From positions 1 through 34,567 of the IMG/VR virus record IMGVR_UViG_3300034168_000549: 34,567 nt of DNA, one strand, 5' to 3'. Of this stretch, positions 14,689-19,855 are shown piece after piece; positions within the stretch are counted from its first letter, which is position 1, and every line of letters begins with the position of its first letter. Below the pieces are notes generated by a model. That model was not told the DNA's origin, did no database searches, and saw nothing but the letters and a program-made list of their open reading frames with translations. This stretch comes from a virus. Made by a program: the position numbers and the translations under genes.

Positions 14689-15588
14689 TTACGGGGACTC
14701 ATCGCAATAGATACGAACAACCTTCTCATTCTCAGTGCGGACGGCACCAAGCATCATGGTCGAGCGAATCTGAAGCGCATGCCGGCGGGTAGGCAGAATG
14801 TCCATCTGCACCTTGCGGTCGGACATGGCGAACTTGATTGCGCTCTTGTGGAAGGCAAACACGGAGCGGATGTCAGCAACCGAGGAAACGGTGGCATTGA
14901 TGAGACGCTGCGAGGACAGGAACTTGAAACCGAGGAAGGTGTCGACCTGACCACTCACAAGTGCCTTGATGCTGTTGAAGTCTTCGCTGGTGACTTCCGT
15001 AGTGCGAAGAAGGTCTTGCACCTGTTGAGCACCACAGACGAGCATACGGTCAGAGTTTGGCACTTCAGCCAAATCCATCAGGTATTTGGCTCGACGAAGT
15101 TTGCCAATGGTCAGACCGCTCTGCGCGGCGGATCCGGTTTCAACATAGCTGGACGCGATGGAATAGCTGGAGTTGAAAGCATCCGAGGTCGTGCCGTCTT
15201 CGCCAATGTAGCGGGTAGCGTCAAAGGCATTGATGATCACGTCATCGATTGCACGGTTGAATGCCATCGCGTGAGACTGGACTTCGTCGCTCGTTGGGAG
15301 AACGATGGAACCGAGGAAGTGCTTGTCGAACTCATCGAAGACAGTGACTTTTTCCTTCGGACGCTGGGTGAGCCAGTATTTGGATCCGTCGAATTCACCG
15401 TCAGGCGTGTCACCTTTGCGAGTGAGAACGTCCTGAGCTTCGGAATCGTTGATGAGGTTGAACCATTTCTTCTTGCCGGTGAAATCGGCGCGAGTAACGG
15501 AATTGAGCAGGCGCGAATCCATCTGCTGGAGAGCCTGGGAGAAAGAGCGTTCGAACTCTGTTGGGTAGAATGTATCAATGGTAGCCAT
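14689..15588 (-). CDS. Major capsid protein
   Basis: 299 residues beginning MATIDTFYPTEFERSFSQAL. Features typical of this podoviral capsid group are an N-terminal helix, an early charged loop (TGKKKWFNLINDSEAQDVLT), and a long central helix region (DVIINAFDATRYIGEDGTTS) of the kind seen in HK97-fold proteins. The end (MLGAVRTENEKVVRIYCDES) is also typical of the group. Position between scaffold and tail-tube genes supports the call. The coding region is isolated: 774 non-coding bases upstream hold a possible promoter with two palindromic sites, and a terminator follows. The leader (CTCATCACACCAAAATCATG) has no Shine-Dalgarno site although this should be one of the most expressed genes, so initiation probably relies on an unstructured leader. 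Confidence 0.88.
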   Translation of the reverse strand: MATIDTFYPTEFERSFSQALQQMDSRLLNSVTRADFTGKKKWFNLINDSEAQDVLTRKGDTPDGEFDGSKYWLTQRPKEKVTVFDEFDKHFLGSIVLPTSDEVQSHAMAFNRAIDDVIINAFDATRYIGEDGTTSDAFNSSYSIASSYVETGSAAQSGLTIGKLRRAKYLMDLAEVPNSDRMLVCGAQQVQDLLRTTEVTSEDFNSIKALVSGQVDTFLGFKFLSSQRLINATVSSVADIRSVFAFHKSAIKFAMSDRKVQMDILPTRRHALQIRSTMMLGAVRTENEKVVRIYCDESP

Positions 15589-15615
15589 GATTTTGGTGTG
15601 ATGAGGTGAGATGAC

Positions 15616-15652
15616 CTGTCCGTTGTGGACAGTGTCGGAAGTCGTTGCTTCC
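15616..15652 (-). promoter_or_regulatory. Two hairpins in the capsid 5' leader
   Basis: CTGTCC (15616-15621) pairs with GGACAG (15627-15632) over a 5-base loop, and GGAAG (15637-15641) with CTTCC (15648-15652) over 6 bases. Both lie 28-65 bases upstream of the capsid ATG, followed by an unstructured A/C-rich stretch. A role in mRNA stability or in exposing the start codon is an inference. Confidence 0.5.
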
Positions 15653-15726
15653 AGTGCTCCTCGGTTGCCTTCGTTGAAGACCTCGTAGACCGGCTTTCAG
15701 CTTGTCCATTGCTGGGGCTGATTCAG

Positions 15727-15779
15727 GATATTCTCACAAATGAGAATCAAAGCAAGAACTTTTCTCATTTTTGAGAAAA
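15727..15779 (-). promoter_or_regulatory. Tandem TCTCA-N4-TGAGA palindromes with candidate capsid promoter
   Basis: Two perfect inverted repeats lie here: ATTCTCACAAATGAGAAT at 15730-15747 and TTTTCTCATTTTTGAGAAAA at 15760-15779. Their centres are 31 bp apart, close to three helical turns. On the minus strand a TTGCTT hexamer (15755-15750) lies between them, with AATATC (15732-15727) 17 bases further on, so the left palindrome would fall in the promoter spacer. The -10 match is poor, so the promoter call is tentative. The same palindrome core recurs upstream of the portal unit (19814-19849), which suggests operators for one regulator. No cognate regulator is identified. Confidence 0.55.
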
Positions 15780-15935
15780 AGGATCATTGCACATGAGCGG
15801 CACATAAGAATCAGGAGTTGTAGTGAAACACTGATTTAACTTGCAAGAAGCGACAAATGCTTCACCTTCAGGTCGAATTCAAATAGGTTTCCCTCTCTGA
15901 GAAAGAGTGATCCGACCCATTGGGGAAACCCGCCG

Positions 15936-15967
15936 AGGCCGACTTTTTCTCAGGAAGTCGGCCTTTT
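15936..15967 (+). terminator. Plus-strand terminator-like hairpin in the capsid-scaffold gap
   Basis: AGGCCGACTT (15936-15945) pairs over all ten bases with AAGTCGGCCT (15955-15964), and the plus strand continues TTT, giving a run of four T. On the minus strand no T-run follows the stem. It is the main sign of plus-strand transcription in the window. It could end a short RNA containing the hairpin at 15886-15930. It could instead be one stem of a larger RNA. Confidence 0.55.
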
Positions 15968-16269
15968 GCGTTCTGGGCATCTCCTGCCTGACATAGTTGG
16001 TAGCGTCCCTGAGTGGGCAACGTGGGCCAATGTTGGAGATTCGGCGCACGGTAGAAAGCAGATCAGCCGTGCAAAAGTCTTATCCGAAAGGATAGGCTGC
16101 CGCTTGAATCGTTTGACCCGTGTTTACTGAGACAGCCGAGCGGGAAGATTTAAGTGTGCGATGGTGTTCCTAATTCCCGACGAATGAGCAACTCACGCTA
16201 GCAGATTCCCAGCAATGGGACTGCTATGCTCCGATGAAACCATCAAACCCTCTGAATGAGTATGCAACG

Positions 16270-16299
16270 AAAAGGGCCAGGCCGATTAAGACCTGACCC
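16270..16299 (-). terminator. Minus-strand terminator-like hairpin downstream of scaffold
   Basis: On the minus strand GGGTCAGG (16299-16292) pairs with CCTGGCCC (16281-16274), with one G-T pair, followed by TTTT (16273-16270). It would be the second of two terminators after the scaffold gene. The hairpin is also nested inside the longer stem 16249-16260/16303-16314, so it may equally be part of a structured RNA. Confidence 0.55.
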
Positions 16300-16330
16300 C
16301 TGCTCATTCTGAGGACACTAGAGCTAGTGC

Positions 16331-16352
16331 AAAAACGCCGACACAACTCGGC
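16331..16352 (-). terminator. Short terminator hairpin just after scaffold gene
   Basis: On the minus strand GCCGA (16352-16348) pairs with TCGGC (16341-16337) over GTTGTG, then a G and five T (16335-16331). It begins 10 bases past the scaffold stop. The stem is only 5 bp, so alone it would be modest in strength. Confidence 0.55.
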
Positions 16353-16362
16353 ACCTCAAATC

Positions 16363-17187
16363 TTATGCGGTCGCAGCACCGTGCAAACGCTGAAGCTGAG
16401 ACAATGCAGCGGTTTGCTTCTCGATGCCATTCTTTCCTTGGTAATCGTCACTTTTGCGAATGCGATCAGCCTGCTCTTGGTAGGTAGCCGCGACATTGTC
16501 ACCGCTGACCAGGCCGGAATCTTCGCGCAGGAACTTATCCACAGCCAGTGAGGCGCGAATGAATTCAGGATCCGATGCCAGTTTGCTGGTCTTGATGTCG
16601 ATGCCGACTGCCAGTGCTCCACGAGCTGCACGCTGCCAGTTATTTGGAGCATCTGCGCCCCATTCAGTATTCAGCCCATCGATCACGCTCTGAATCTGTT
16701 GTGCCTGCAACTCAGCCGACTTGGTGACGATGCCACTCAAGTTATCATTGTTGAGGTCAATGAGTTTGTGCAGTGCTTCAGGTGGAATGCCATACTCTGC
16801 TGCAATTGCTGCGGCTTTGTTGGCAGTGTCAGCATTCCACTCAATGCCTTCAGGCAGGTTCTCTGGTGCCTTCAGACCGTAGTCTTCAGCTTTCTCAGGC
16901 GCACCGGTGATTTTCCTGACTTCAGCGCGATAAGCGGCGATCTGTTCAGGTGTTGCGTTGGCACCTGGGATCTTGATCTCGCGTTTCTCGCTGAATGCCT
17001 TTTCGAGCGACTGATATGATGCGCCGAGTTGATCAACCTTTGGCTCACCTTTGGCCTCATCCCAGAACTTGGCTGGAATGTAGTCAGGTCGAGTGACTGT
17101 TGATGGCGCAATGTCGGGAGTCGCCGGCGTTGGTGTGATCTGCGTTTCGAGCGCAGTCGTTTCTGTGGTCGTTGTTGTTGTGTCCAT
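16363..17187 (-). CDS. Capsid scaffolding protein
   Basis: 274 residues from the ATG at 17187; an upstream extension of the frame would overlap the previous gene and looks unlike a protein. The N-terminus is Thr/Pro-rich (MDTTTTTTETTALETQITPT), followed by YIPAKFWDEAKGEPKVDQLG, the usual pattern of phage scaffold proteins. A mostly charged helical body contains ITGAPEKAEDYGLKAPENLP, also common in this family. The acidic, helical, low-complexity make-up and the place between portal and capsid support the role: it guides prohead assembly and leaves before packaging. Two terminator-like hairpins follow at once, so it probably ends the portal-scaffold transcript. Confidence 0.82.
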   Translation of the reverse strand: MDTTTTTTETTALETQITPTPATPDIAPSTVTRPDYIPAKFWDEAKGEPKVDQLGASYQSLEKAFSEKREIKIPGANATPEQIAAYRAEVRKITGAPEKAEDYGLKAPENLPEGIEWNADTANKAAAIAAEYGIPPEALHKLIDLNNDNLSGIVTKSAELQAQQIQSVIDGLNTEWGADAPNNWQRAARGALAVGIDIKTSKLASDPEFIRASLAVDKFLREDSGLVSGDNVAATYQEQADRIRKSDDYQGKNGIEKQTAALSQLQRLHGAATA

Positions 17188-17191
17188 GATG

Positions 17192-17539
17192 TTATTTGAC
17201 GTTGATTTCTTTCCACGAGTTGAACTCGCTAGGGCCGTAAGTGTTGACGAATCGAAGCTGGAACTGCTGTGGATTCTCCCAGTAGTTACCGAATCCGCTG
17301 ATGTCCCAGCGCGAAGGTGGAGGAGGTAGCTTGACCGGTTCTTCAGCTTCGGCCGATGCAGGCTCGTCGAGCTTGGGATCAATGAGAGAAACCTTCAGAT
17401 TCGGGTTTGCCGCAACGTCTCGGATCTGTCCCAAGATGCGACCGCTGATCTTCTCACCGGCGATGATTGTGTCATTGACGATGCGACCGATGAACTCGTC
17501 ATCGCGCATCACTTTGTTGTCTTCTGTGATTGTGATCAT
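17192..17539 (-). CDS. Hypothetical protein between portal and scaffold
   Basis: 115 residues from the ATG at 17539 (MITITEDNKVMRDDEFIGRI); a longer form starting at 17662 would overlap the preceding gene by more than 100 bases. The protein is acidic, with a Pro-rich linker (VKLPPPPSRWD) and a C-terminal part rich in aromatic residues (GFGNYWENPQQFQLRFVNTY). I do not recognise the family. Its gaps of 4 bases on both sides mark it as part of the portal-scaffold operon, so a head-assembly accessory role is likely but unproven. Confidence 0.7.
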   Translation of the reverse strand: MITITEDNKVMRDDEFIGRIVNDTIIAGEKISGRILGQIRDVAANPNLKVSLIDPKLDEPASAEAEEPVKLPPPPSRWDISGFGNYWENPQQFQLRFVNTYGPSEFNSWKEINVK

Positions 17540-17839: not shown

Positions 17840-19534
17840 TCACATCATTGCCTGGGCGACCTCTTTGGCTTTATCCACGCCTCCGATATCCTTTACGGCA
17901 CCTGCCATCTGTTGCGCCATTGCCATCTGTTGCTGAGCCTGCATTGCCTGAGCGCGGCCTTGACGAATTGCATCGACCTCCTCTTGAGGACGCAGGAAGG
18001 AAGGATCCACGCCGGCAAGCCTTGAGCTTTCACGAATGAACCATGACGGGTTGATTTCATCGATGATCTCAGGAAACACTGGAGCAAGTGATGCGATCTT
18101 CTGAACCATCGTGTCAGCAGCACGCAGCGACAGTCCACGCAGAGCGAGTGCCAGCCGATTTGTCATCGTGATCACAGGATTCGGCACCTGGACAAGATTC
18201 GGCCCGATCTGTTGCACAGCTTCAGCAGGAGGAGGAGGAAGCATTCCATTCTCAGCCCACGATTCAAATAAGCGAATCATCATTGGCTGGATCGTATCGG
18301 TCGTGTCGCGATCAAACGCAGGGCTGATGGCATCCAGCTTCTCACCGGCAAGTTGGTTTGCTTCAAATGCCGTCATTTCACGATTGTTCGCAGCGTTCAT
18401 GCTAAACATTTGGAACATGTCGAGATGGCATCGCCGGCGGATCATGTCCTGGCGCATTTTGACGCGCTCCATTGCCATCGACCAGTCGCCACTGACTGGC
18501 AGCGGATAGATGGAATCAGGATTCAAGCCTGCGCCATAGTAGTTCATGGCTCGTGCGGATGTCTTCAGCGTGCCTTCAAACGTGTCTGGCACCATCATTG
18601 GCGGGAACACTGACTTCTCAGCGTAAACATCCATCATCTTCTGCATGAAATTCAACTGACGTGACTCAGGCAGAATCGAGAATCCTGGGCCGTATCCCCA
18701 AACGTCACCAACGTCGAGAGCATCCCACTTCAGGAACCGTCCAACGTGGAACGGGAATGAGTCAAAGCCACCTTCCTGAACGATTTTTTGACTATCCTTT
18801 TCGACATAAGCAGAGACGAACGCTTTCTTCATGCCTGCTGCCATTCCGAGATCATTCCCGCGCTCACTGACTGGTCGAGGTTCGACGATATGAATGAAGG
18901 TGAACTTCTTGTCGGAGTTGTTGTCGCATGCCTCCCTGACTGCTAGTGGCAATTCATCTTTTCCGAACTTAGCTTCAGCCTGTCGAGCAGTCAGATCGAA
19001 CTCACGCATGACGCAGTTCGCCATGCCGTTGTGATCAGTGTCGAAGACATACGAGCCGATCTTGATCTTCTCAAACCGAGTCTGGTTGTCGGGCGTGACC
19101 TGCGAGAACAAGCAGGATGTTCCAAAGCCCCAAAGGTCAAAGAGCGACTCGTGCCGCTCAGCGTAAAAATTGCTGTTTGCGATGTATTCGGACGCGAGCA
19201 TCGAGCACTCACGCAGCCAGTTCTTGACGGCATCGTTATCGCGGAACTTGAGGATCGGCGTGAACTCCATCCACGGCTGCGTTTTGTCGGTCGTCCATGA
19301 CATGTAACCGGCAACTGCACGCTCGATGGCATCCATGCCGGTGATGTCGTAGAGTCGAGCATCACGTTGATTCGCAGGCGTGTAGTCTTTCTGTGTAACG
19401 CCAGCCTTTCGAGTAAAGATGTGCTCCGCAATCTCCTGCCAGGAAGTGTCCCAAATAGCACGAGCATCTCTCAGCGAGTTGTAACGCTTGAGCCACCTAG
19501 CAGTGCGATCATTGCCCTCGATGTAGTCGCTCAT
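17840..19534 (-). CDS. Portal (head-tail connector) protein
   Basis: 564 residues. The N-terminus (LKRYNSLRDARAIWDTSWQE, then IAEHIFTRKAGV) is the standard opening of the podoviral head-tail connector family, where R-x-x-W-x-x-x-W-x-E-I-A is typical. Other family features are YDITGMDAIERAVAGYMSW, which matches the usual 'D.T...A...LA....S.L' region, and the Gln/Met/Ala-rich C-terminus (QAMQAQQQMAMAQQMAGAV) that would form the barrel of the dodecameric ring. Terminase genes just upstream and the scaffold gene downstream fix the role: it is the vertex through which DNA is packaged and to which the tail attaches. No Shine-Dalgarno site is visible (CTAAATACTGACCACATG). Confidence 0.9.
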   Translation of the reverse strand: MSDYIEGNDRTARWLKRYNSLRDARAIWDTSWQEIAEHIFTRKAGVTQKDYTPANQRDARLYDITGMDAIERAVAGYMSWTTDKTQPWMEFTPILKFRDNDAVKNWLRECSMLASEYIANSNFYAERHESLFDLWGFGTSCLFSQVTPDNQTRFEKIKIGSYVFDTDHNGMANCVMREFDLTARQAEAKFGKDELPLAVREACDNNSDKKFTFIHIVEPRPVSERGNDLGMAAGMKKAFVSAYVEKDSQKIVQEGGFDSFPFHVGRFLKWDALDVGDVWGYGPGFSILPESRQLNFMQKMMDVYAEKSVFPPMMVPDTFEGTLKTSARAMNYYGAGLNPDSIYPLPVSGDWSMAMERVKMRQDMIRRRCHLDMFQMFSMNAANNREMTAFEANQLAGEKLDAISPAFDRDTTDTIQPMMIRLFESWAENGMLPPPPAEAVQQIGPNLVQVPNPVITMTNRLALALRGLSLRAADTMVQKIASLAPVFPEIIDEINPSWFIRESSRLAGVDPSFLRPQEEVDAIRQGRAQAMQAQQQMAMAQQMAGAVKDIGGVDKAKEVAQAMM

Positions 19535-19813: not shown

Positions 19814-19855
19814 TTTCTCATTTTTGATAATCATCTCAAAAGTGAGAAAGCGCAA
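19814..19855 (-). promoter_or_regulatory. Candidate promoter with paired TCTCA-N4-TGAGA operators before portal unit
   Basis: On the minus strand TTGCGC (19855-19850) and GATTAT (19832-19827) are 17 bases apart, a plausible sigma70-like promoter. The palindrome TCTCAAAAGTGAGA (19834-19847) lies in the spacer. An imperfect copy, TTTCTCATTTTTGATAA (19814-19830), covers the -10 and start region. Together they also form a 14-bp inverted repeat with one mismatch (19814-19827 with 19836-19849), which could fold as a hairpin. The TCTCA-N4-TGAGA core also occurs twice before the capsid gene. Confidence 0.55.

Follow-up and report, generated by a model that had tools for sequence, protein, structure and literature searches.

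A virus record of 34,567 bases, analysed at its full length and hereafter called the window, carries large open reading frames (ORFs) that all lie on the minus strand. From sequence comparison, the 774-bp gap between its capsid gene and the neighbouring ORF appears to encode a plus-strand RNA of about 390 nt made of two modules, A (15874-15973) and B (ca. 15996-16250). That a conserved plus-strand RNA exists at this place is, in our judgement, close to certain; the RNA family is unrecognised by Rfam 15, and its function is inferred. The best overall explanation, which we hold with somewhat more confidence than doubt, is an RNA-gene cassette in which module A is a leader and module B the RNA.

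Searched with Rfam 15, the window had no match at the gathering score, and the gap region (15500-16450, up to E 5) returned four chance-level matches only (E 0.23 to 4.4). A scan of nine other loci up to E 1 also left the family unrecognised, as neither GOLLD nor ROOL. In a phage collection, the DNA query 15000-17500 had no match, 15860-16270 had chance-level matches only (2 records) and the L124 copy had none, while a DNA query of plasmids gave one chance-level match; the scope of these searches is limited to these DNA queries, which divergent copies could escape. Bacterial genomes were searched only with a pattern for module A, which matched 16 stretches, none of them followed by the hairpin. 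This RNA is undescribed in the literature titles and abstracts searched, most subscription journals being out of scope.

The 774-bp gap and its exchanged cassette

The RNA and its immediate surroundings comprise the following features:

15874-16262, plus strand: whole RNA, inferred from the module A covariance match and the module B alignment to 16262; 5' and 3' ends unmapped
15777-16264 (borders approximate), plus strand: cassette, ca. 490 bp of the 774-bp gap, absent from short-gap relatives
15731-15746 and 15762-15777, minus strand: two palindromes TTCTCA-N4-TGAGAA, in the conserved backbone ahead of the capsid gene and outside the RNA
16270-16299 (stem 16274-16281/16292-16299), minus strand: terminator-like hairpin and T-run after the scaffold ORF, in the backbone and outside the RNA

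The gap is real and separates the gene of the major head protein assigned by PHROGs (capsid, 14689-15588, minus strand) from an ORF named scaffold (16363-17382, minus strand). The latter name is by position only, the PHROGs match being a family of unknown function, with a weaker match to a 'protease' family. Other PHROGs assignments in the window include a head-tail adaptor (17840-19534), tail proteins, the terminase large subunit, a DnaB-like helicase, a RecT-like protein and an endolysin. The adaptor has a match in 187 phages; the 12 listed, which include Bordetella BPP-1, a Cobetia phage and Pelagibacter phages, have counterparts sharing 26.8-28.3% identity with it. A Shine-Dalgarno-like sequence was found upstream of only 3 of the 24 window genes checked, which hints at a host lineage using few such sites; the host is unidentified.

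A search of viral contigs with the capsid protein identified 46 loci. The end of the scaffold ORF could be placed in 42 relatives and in the window; upstream DNA was too short in L006, L019 and L024, and L043 was excluded from the gap comparison as its match begins within the gene. The lengths of the 43 gaps, which represent 30 distinct sequences with several near-identical copies, are bimodal, with 21 loci at 222-346 bases and 22, including the window, at 723-1436. In the short-gap loci L014-L018, positions 1-98 and 587-774 of the gap are almost contiguous, so that the middle part (ca. 15777-16264) can be delineated as a cassette; 21 of the 42 resolved relatives have nothing at this position. 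The original prediction had described the entire gap as structured. Structure beyond chance is indeed present, the plus-strand fold of 15874-16262 reaching z -3.69 with none of 100 shuffles as good. Only ca. 15777-16264 is part of the cassette, however: positions 15589-15776 are conserved backbone ahead of the capsid gene, also found in relatives without the cassette.

Among the 22 long gaps, 15 contain module A, and seven (L007, L036, L037, L021, L025, L042 and L046) are occupied by other DNA with open frames instead. Since L038 and L039 share near-identical flanks and differ in both module A and the cargo behind it, cassettes have been exchanged between phages. Such exchange would also fit a mobile intron or homing element that lost its nuclease gene in the window and survives there as a relic. 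Relatives hold HNH and helix-turn-helix ORFs at the same place, and the L038 ORF, although without a Pfam match, resembles by eye the HsdR_N-like ORF of L057. Yet in the contexts inspected the cassette lies between genes, Rfam scans covering the window and nine other loci revealed no group I or group II match, and the helices are retained in copies that have no nuclease gene. We thus give the relic hypothesis little credit.

The hairpin at 16270-16299 is retained in close short-gap relatives. A 12-base stem proposed at 16249-16260/16303-16314 did not survive comparison: its 3' arm lies in the scaffold flank, and the stem is read as a coincidence of the junction because the 3' end of the RNA adjoins other sequence in most aligned relatives.

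Pairs of the palindrome TTCTCA-N4-TGAGAA, with at most one mismatch each, occur ahead of the capsid gene (15731-15777) and at 19815-19848, upstream of the ORF preceding the head-tail adaptor. With up to two mismatches, the window has 8 matches against 2.65 expected (0 of 100 shuffles had as many), and similar palindromes were seen by eye upstream of module A in L051, L154 and L158. They are possible operators of a phage regulator. The scaffold-capsid gaps of L041 and L007 (and of L037, by eye) contain ORFs with weak helix-turn-helix matches, below the Pfam cut-off, which are antisense to the late operon and are candidates for the regulator of these palindromes.

Covarying helices of module B and the functional strand

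A pattern derived from the second half of the cassette matched 34 stretches, of which 20 were new and all had module B sequence around the pattern. Module A was recognised upstream of these 20, by script or by eye, except in L133, which starts 21 bases before the pattern. In L135, a second stretch of the L006 record, only 38 bases upstream are usable, and in this record module A is partial, with a run of N breaking it. A variant of the module B pattern allowing a longer gap had no matches.

Module B (ca. 15996-16250) is predicted to form 11 helices, seven of which have pairs changed on both sides:

15996-16031, plus strand: helices 1-3 (covariation, G-U/A-C counts)
16043-16225, plus strand: core, with helix 4 (16043-16045/16223-16225) around helices 5-11 (covariation; model R2)
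16046-16072, plus strand: helix 5, 16046-16055 with 16063-16072; 100% of cells paired, double changes in 5 of 9 pairs
16076-16098, plus strand: helix 6, with a GAAA tetraloop (16086-16089); double changes in 5 of 8 pairs
16104-16153, plus strand: helices 8 (16104-16110/16147-16153) and 9 (16117-16120/16141-16144) around the conserved CTGAGACAGCCGA
16208-16219, plus strand: helix 11, with a GCAA loop in some family members; pairs without double changes

Applied to 23 distinct module B sequences, RNAalifold predicted 50 pairs, 28 of which have at least one double-sided, pair-keeping change. Among 1150 pair cells, 98.0% are paired, compared with 82.0% in shuffled alignments and 27.6-41.7% when the structure is slid. 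Cells changed on both sides number 193 versus 49.8 in shuffles, and the covariation score is 0.525 versus 0.194; none of 500 shuffles reached the paired share, the double changes or the covariation score of module B. The number of further pair types is 70 versus 63.9 in shuffles, 14 of 500 being as high. The structure was derived from the same alignment that tests it, which favours the structure. Double changes occur in helices 1, 2, 3, 5, 6, 8 and 9, affecting 6 of 7 pairs in helix 8 and 3 of 4 in helix 9, and are absent from helices 4, 7, 10 and 11; helix 4 is uninformative because it is nearly invariant. A covariance model built on 16041-16161 (R2) scores 129.6 bits in the window.

Several individual elements had been proposed from the sequence alone. 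The GAAA at 16086-16089 proved to be a GNRA loop on a covarying helix, the cap being present in 21 of 23 sequences although the stem of helix 6 changes. For the GCAA at 16212-16215, the loop itself is supported in 13 of 23 sequences, while helix 11 offers no double changes. A 6-bp long-range stem (16160-16165/16239-16244) has its letters present in the window, but no double changes, and 3 of its 6 positions break, being paired in 7, 16 and 10 of the 23 sequences; it was abandoned. An outer helix suspected by eye at ca. 15978-15984/16034-16040 is ragged in the alignment and remains unclaimed.

G-U cells outnumber A-C cells by 113 to 4 in the pairs of module B across the 23 sequences, which identifies the plus strand of the window as the functional strand. 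This imbalance and the covariation, which is strong in both modules, support the earlier proposal of a stand-alone plus-strand phage RNA, whose transcription is inferred. The alternative raised with it was that the structure belongs to the minus strand, as a leader at the 5' end of the capsid mRNA. The gap does sit upstream of the capsid gene, and the helices also form on the minus strand, where 15874-16262 folds with z -2.52 and 1 of 100 shuffles is as good. The G-U/A-C imbalance argues otherwise, as does the absence of the cassette from the 21 relatives mentioned above; moreover, other phages carry the same RNA in different locations, and its reading direction points away from the capsid gene. 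A capsid mRNA leader thus fits poorly, and we attach next to no weight to it.

The longest listed plus-strand ORF overlapping the RNA has 54 aa (15966-16130). Insertions and deletions in the module B alignment do not preserve a frame, an observation with no formal coding test behind it. Since no frame is evidently conserved and the ORFs found downstream differ or are absent, module B most likely acts as RNA. A 3' motif resembling CCCTCTGAATAA recurs in other contexts and supports a 3' end of the RNA near 16262.

The pseudoknotted module A

Module A precedes module B in the window and has the following elements:

15874-15973, plus strand: module A, pseudoknotted leader with a terminator-like 3' hairpin (model R1, 79.1 bits)
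15886-15893 with 15923-15930, plus strand: helix P1, GGTTTCCC/GGGAAACC in the window
15897-15904, plus strand: pseudoknot arm CTGAGAAA, complementary to 15946-15953
15946-15953, plus strand: P3 loop region TTTCTCAG, complementary to the arm at 15897-15904
15935-15965, plus strand: terminator-like hairpin P3 (stem 15935-15945/15955-15965), with a T-run solely on the plus strand

Two of these elements had been anticipated: the 8-bp stem at 15886-15893/15923-15930 corresponds to P1, which is built with other letters in relatives (GGTTTCAC/GTGAAACC, GGTTTGCA/TGCAAACC and GGTTTACA/TGTAAACC), and the 10-bp terminator-like stem at 15936-15967 to P3. Members of the module A family share P1, the arm and a G+C-rich P3 with an arm-complementary loop, followed by a T-rich stretch.

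Module A was found through a motif taken from the aligned cassettes, which served for pattern scans of viral contigs. The first scan matched 22 stretches, 21 with the longer motif, L053 being truncated by the end of its contig (45.4 bits). Further scans added L095, L102/107/108/121, L103/119, L111 and L115 among chance matches, and a looser pattern gave chance matches only on the viral contigs.

Across 22 distinct loops (32 rows), the pairing between arm and loop has been rewritten in lockstep. Complementarity within a member spans 6-9 nt and sums to 163, a value that none of 10,000 permutations reached (maximum 117). Between different members, complementarity of at least 7 nt is found in 13 of 462 combinations, and in 87 of 11,000 shuffled loops. 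Because some distinct loops are only a single letter apart, the 22 cannot all be counted as independent events; L126 was omitted from this test.

A covariance model of 23 sequences (R1), restricted to P1 and P3 and thus blind to the arm-loop pairing, scores 51-100 bits on all 32 sources given. On 22 further loci, R1 detected a full module A in 8 and one more cut by the end of the locus; the remaining 13 were expected to lack module A or to hold no gap. The remaining R1 matches in 53 sources are at most 25.3 bits and mostly correspond to the P3 hairpin on the opposite strand. In L126, which has a different P1 region, R1 gives 18.7 bits, and an 8-nt arm-loop match, overlooked by the script that compared arms and loops, is kept by eye; we counted L126 as a member despite this score. 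The unfiltered R1 search found no second copy of module A in the window, the next-best matches being P3 on the opposite strand (20.9 bits) and chance (up to 9.7 bits). As the register of P1 is ragged in automatic alignments, the claim for module A rests on the arm-loop test and P3.

Of 31 distinct members, 17 have promoter-like hexamers (at least 9 of 12 positions) immediately before module A, versus 7.1% of mononucleotide shuffles. The promoter scan was negative for the upstream DNA of the window, where the best hexamers match 8 of 12 positions. It gave no correctly oriented promoter in L124 and L066, and its sole plus-strand match in L155 falls inside module A. A terminator scan finds the hairpin equivalent to P3 in L155, L124 and L066, and left the P3 of the window undetected.

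Reuse of the modules and proposed function

R1 reached at least 50 bits for module A in 21 of 24 virus records. A second set of 27 records yielded matches in 17, of which 16 again attained 50 bits, the exception being L126 with 18.7. R2 detected module B in 27 of 51 records (27 of 41 and 0 of 10), once in each, the match in G015 being cut by the end of the record. The records were chosen for holding a locus of interest, and these shares do not represent prevalence. All 27 records with module B also have a module A match, weak in the case of L126. Twelve capsid-family records are 34 kb or longer. Five of them (G000, G001, G002, G005 and G010) have module A in the scaffold-capsid gap, four (G006, G007, G009 and G011) carry it elsewhere, and in G003, G004 and G008 it was not found. 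Among the 13 shorter ones, which are fragments, it was found in G029, G041, G047 and G048 and not in the other 9. In L157 (record G002), module A is incomplete at positions 382-481, where a run of N interrupts it, perhaps an assembly artefact; a full module A lies at the other end of this record.

The genomic neighbourhood of the RNA varies. In L054, the whole RNA is flanked on one side by a head protein whose PHROGs family is that of the window protein and on the other by a scaffold-family ORF, and in L115 a scaffold-family ORF adjoins the RNA. A minus-strand gene of ca. 549 aa is near the RNA in 9 of the 26 contexts printed; it has no PHROGs match, and its designation as a terminase was dropped on that ground. 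In L111, a tRNA-Met gene separates modules A and B (ARAGORN, in agreement with the Rfam tRNA model); it is the only tRNA called by ARAGORN in 36 loci scanned, and there is none in the window. By eye, tRNA-like or long-hairpin sequences were seen between the modules or upstream in L102, L103 and L132, for which ARAGORN made no call.

Module A also occurs without module B. Small protein genes start 11-17 bases past the end of the model in L154, L155, L156 and L158, the last being a second, weaker copy of module A in the L038 record (31.1 bits). It also precedes other stretches, some with nuclease-like ORFs (L038, L047 and L051): behind module A, Pfam recognised an HNH domain above the cut-off in L047 and an HNH-like one below it in L051, and no nuclease match in L038, L041 and L103. 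Applied to the stretches behind module A in L012, L038, L041, L047, L051, L066 and L103, the module B model gave no convincing match, only one at E 1 in L038; these stretches, which replace module B, may represent further RNA families. L012 and L047 share one such stretch with 96% identity.

Recurrence with unrelated cargo would also be expected if module A were itself the product, a trans-acting small RNA of ca. 95 nt ending at P3, with module B a separate unit or a read-through passenger. Module A is compact and conserved, has promoter-like DNA in the 17 members noted above, and ends with a terminator-like hairpin. A trans-acting gene needs no coupling, whereas each of the 27 records with module B also has a module A match, and the contexts inspected show module B, an ORF or another conserved stretch behind module A in the same direction. 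The small-RNA hypothesis, although possible, seems unlikely to us.

Based on the promoter-like DNA upstream, the terminator-like hairpin and the reuse before unrelated cargo, module A is most likely a cis-acting leader setting read-through. Under the favoured explanation of an RNA-gene cassette, the gene would lie opposite the strand of the late operon, and transcription would start just upstream of module A, which would be a promoter-proximal leader. P3, which resembles an intrinsic terminator, would have its loop captured by the upstream arm, and the folding of module A would set read-through into the following unit by attenuation or anti-termination, the role of P3 being inferred. In the window phage, this unit would be module B, presumably a folded RNA of ca. 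260 nt rather than a message. Our confidence in module A as a transcription-regulating leader is evenly balanced; that module B is a free-standing RNA we consider rather likely, as an inference made in the absence of transcript data. Whether the arm-loop pairing helps or hinders termination is left undecided by the sequence. The negative promoter and terminator scans of the window count against this explanation, and efficient termination at P3 would imply that module B is made only by read-through. In addition, an ORF lies within a few bases downstream of some copies of module B (L057, L125, L126, L115 and L054), where module B could thus be a leader.

To our knowledge, few classes of large structured phage RNA have been described. 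The present family adds a compact, strongly covarying one, found beside different neighbouring genes, together with a leader that can be separated from it and is also found ahead of protein genes. Models of the R1/R2 type could be used for annotating other phages.

Some attenuators and riboswitches, for example the cobalamin class, use a kissing contact with the expression platform. Module A likewise combines a leader hairpin and a T-run with loop pairing to an upstream arm; in contrast to these systems, it has no Rfam riboswitch match and no competing anti-terminator was identified in it. A second comparison is with the putRNA of phage HK022, an RNA of ca. 70 nt with two hairpins near the early promoters, by which RNA polymerase reads through terminators (PMC9378689). 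Module A, with two main stem-loops, is similarly a short two-hairpin RNA ahead of different units, with promoter-like DNA before it in the 17 members noted above and none that convinces in the window. According to PMC9378689, put is composed of two stem-loops with a triplex in the first, and the term 'pseudoknot' is absent from the main text of that article; the arm of module A pairs with the loop of a T-run-flanked hairpin, and there are no RNA polymerase data for it. Module A resembles put in its inferred position near promoters and not evidently in anatomy.

GOLLD and ROOL are large phage RNAs to which no function has been assigned according to PMC12286853, where ROOL env-120 has 659 nt and many GOLLD RNAs exceed 800 nt, GOLLD forms a homo-oligomeric cage and its linker sometimes contains a tRNA. 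In the same source, a junction-loop kissing contact joins ROOL molecules. Modules A and B could be envisaged as a single ornate RNA of this type, in which arm and loop would form a kissing contact, either tertiary or intermolecular, and the U-run would be a linker only. Module B always occurs with module A, and the tRNA between the modules in L111 recalls the GOLLD linker. Module A is nevertheless not merely a domain of module B, as it stands directly ahead of protein genes without it, and the members shown in full have T-rich sequence behind P3. We consider the single-RNA hypothesis improbable, without dismissing it.

As a separate and speculative proposal, which we would not expect to hold, the RNA-gene cassette may be a two-part system, exchanged as a unit, with module A as an RNA-only switch and module B as an ornate RNA. 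The 6-9 nt arm-loop pairing would then decide read-through behind many phage promoters, and module B, with its GNRA-capped helices, would possibly self-assemble like GOLLD and ROOL. The window RNA differs from both in its size of ca. 390 nt and its internal terminator-like hairpin, without oligomer data and with no Rfam match to either model. It shares with them a large, complex, phage-encoded structure and, as predicted from sequence, kissing contacts; as in GOLLD, its 3' part is conserved and its 5' part varies more, and in L111 a tRNA separates the two. Module B, which matches neither model, resembles GOLLD and ROOL in kind.
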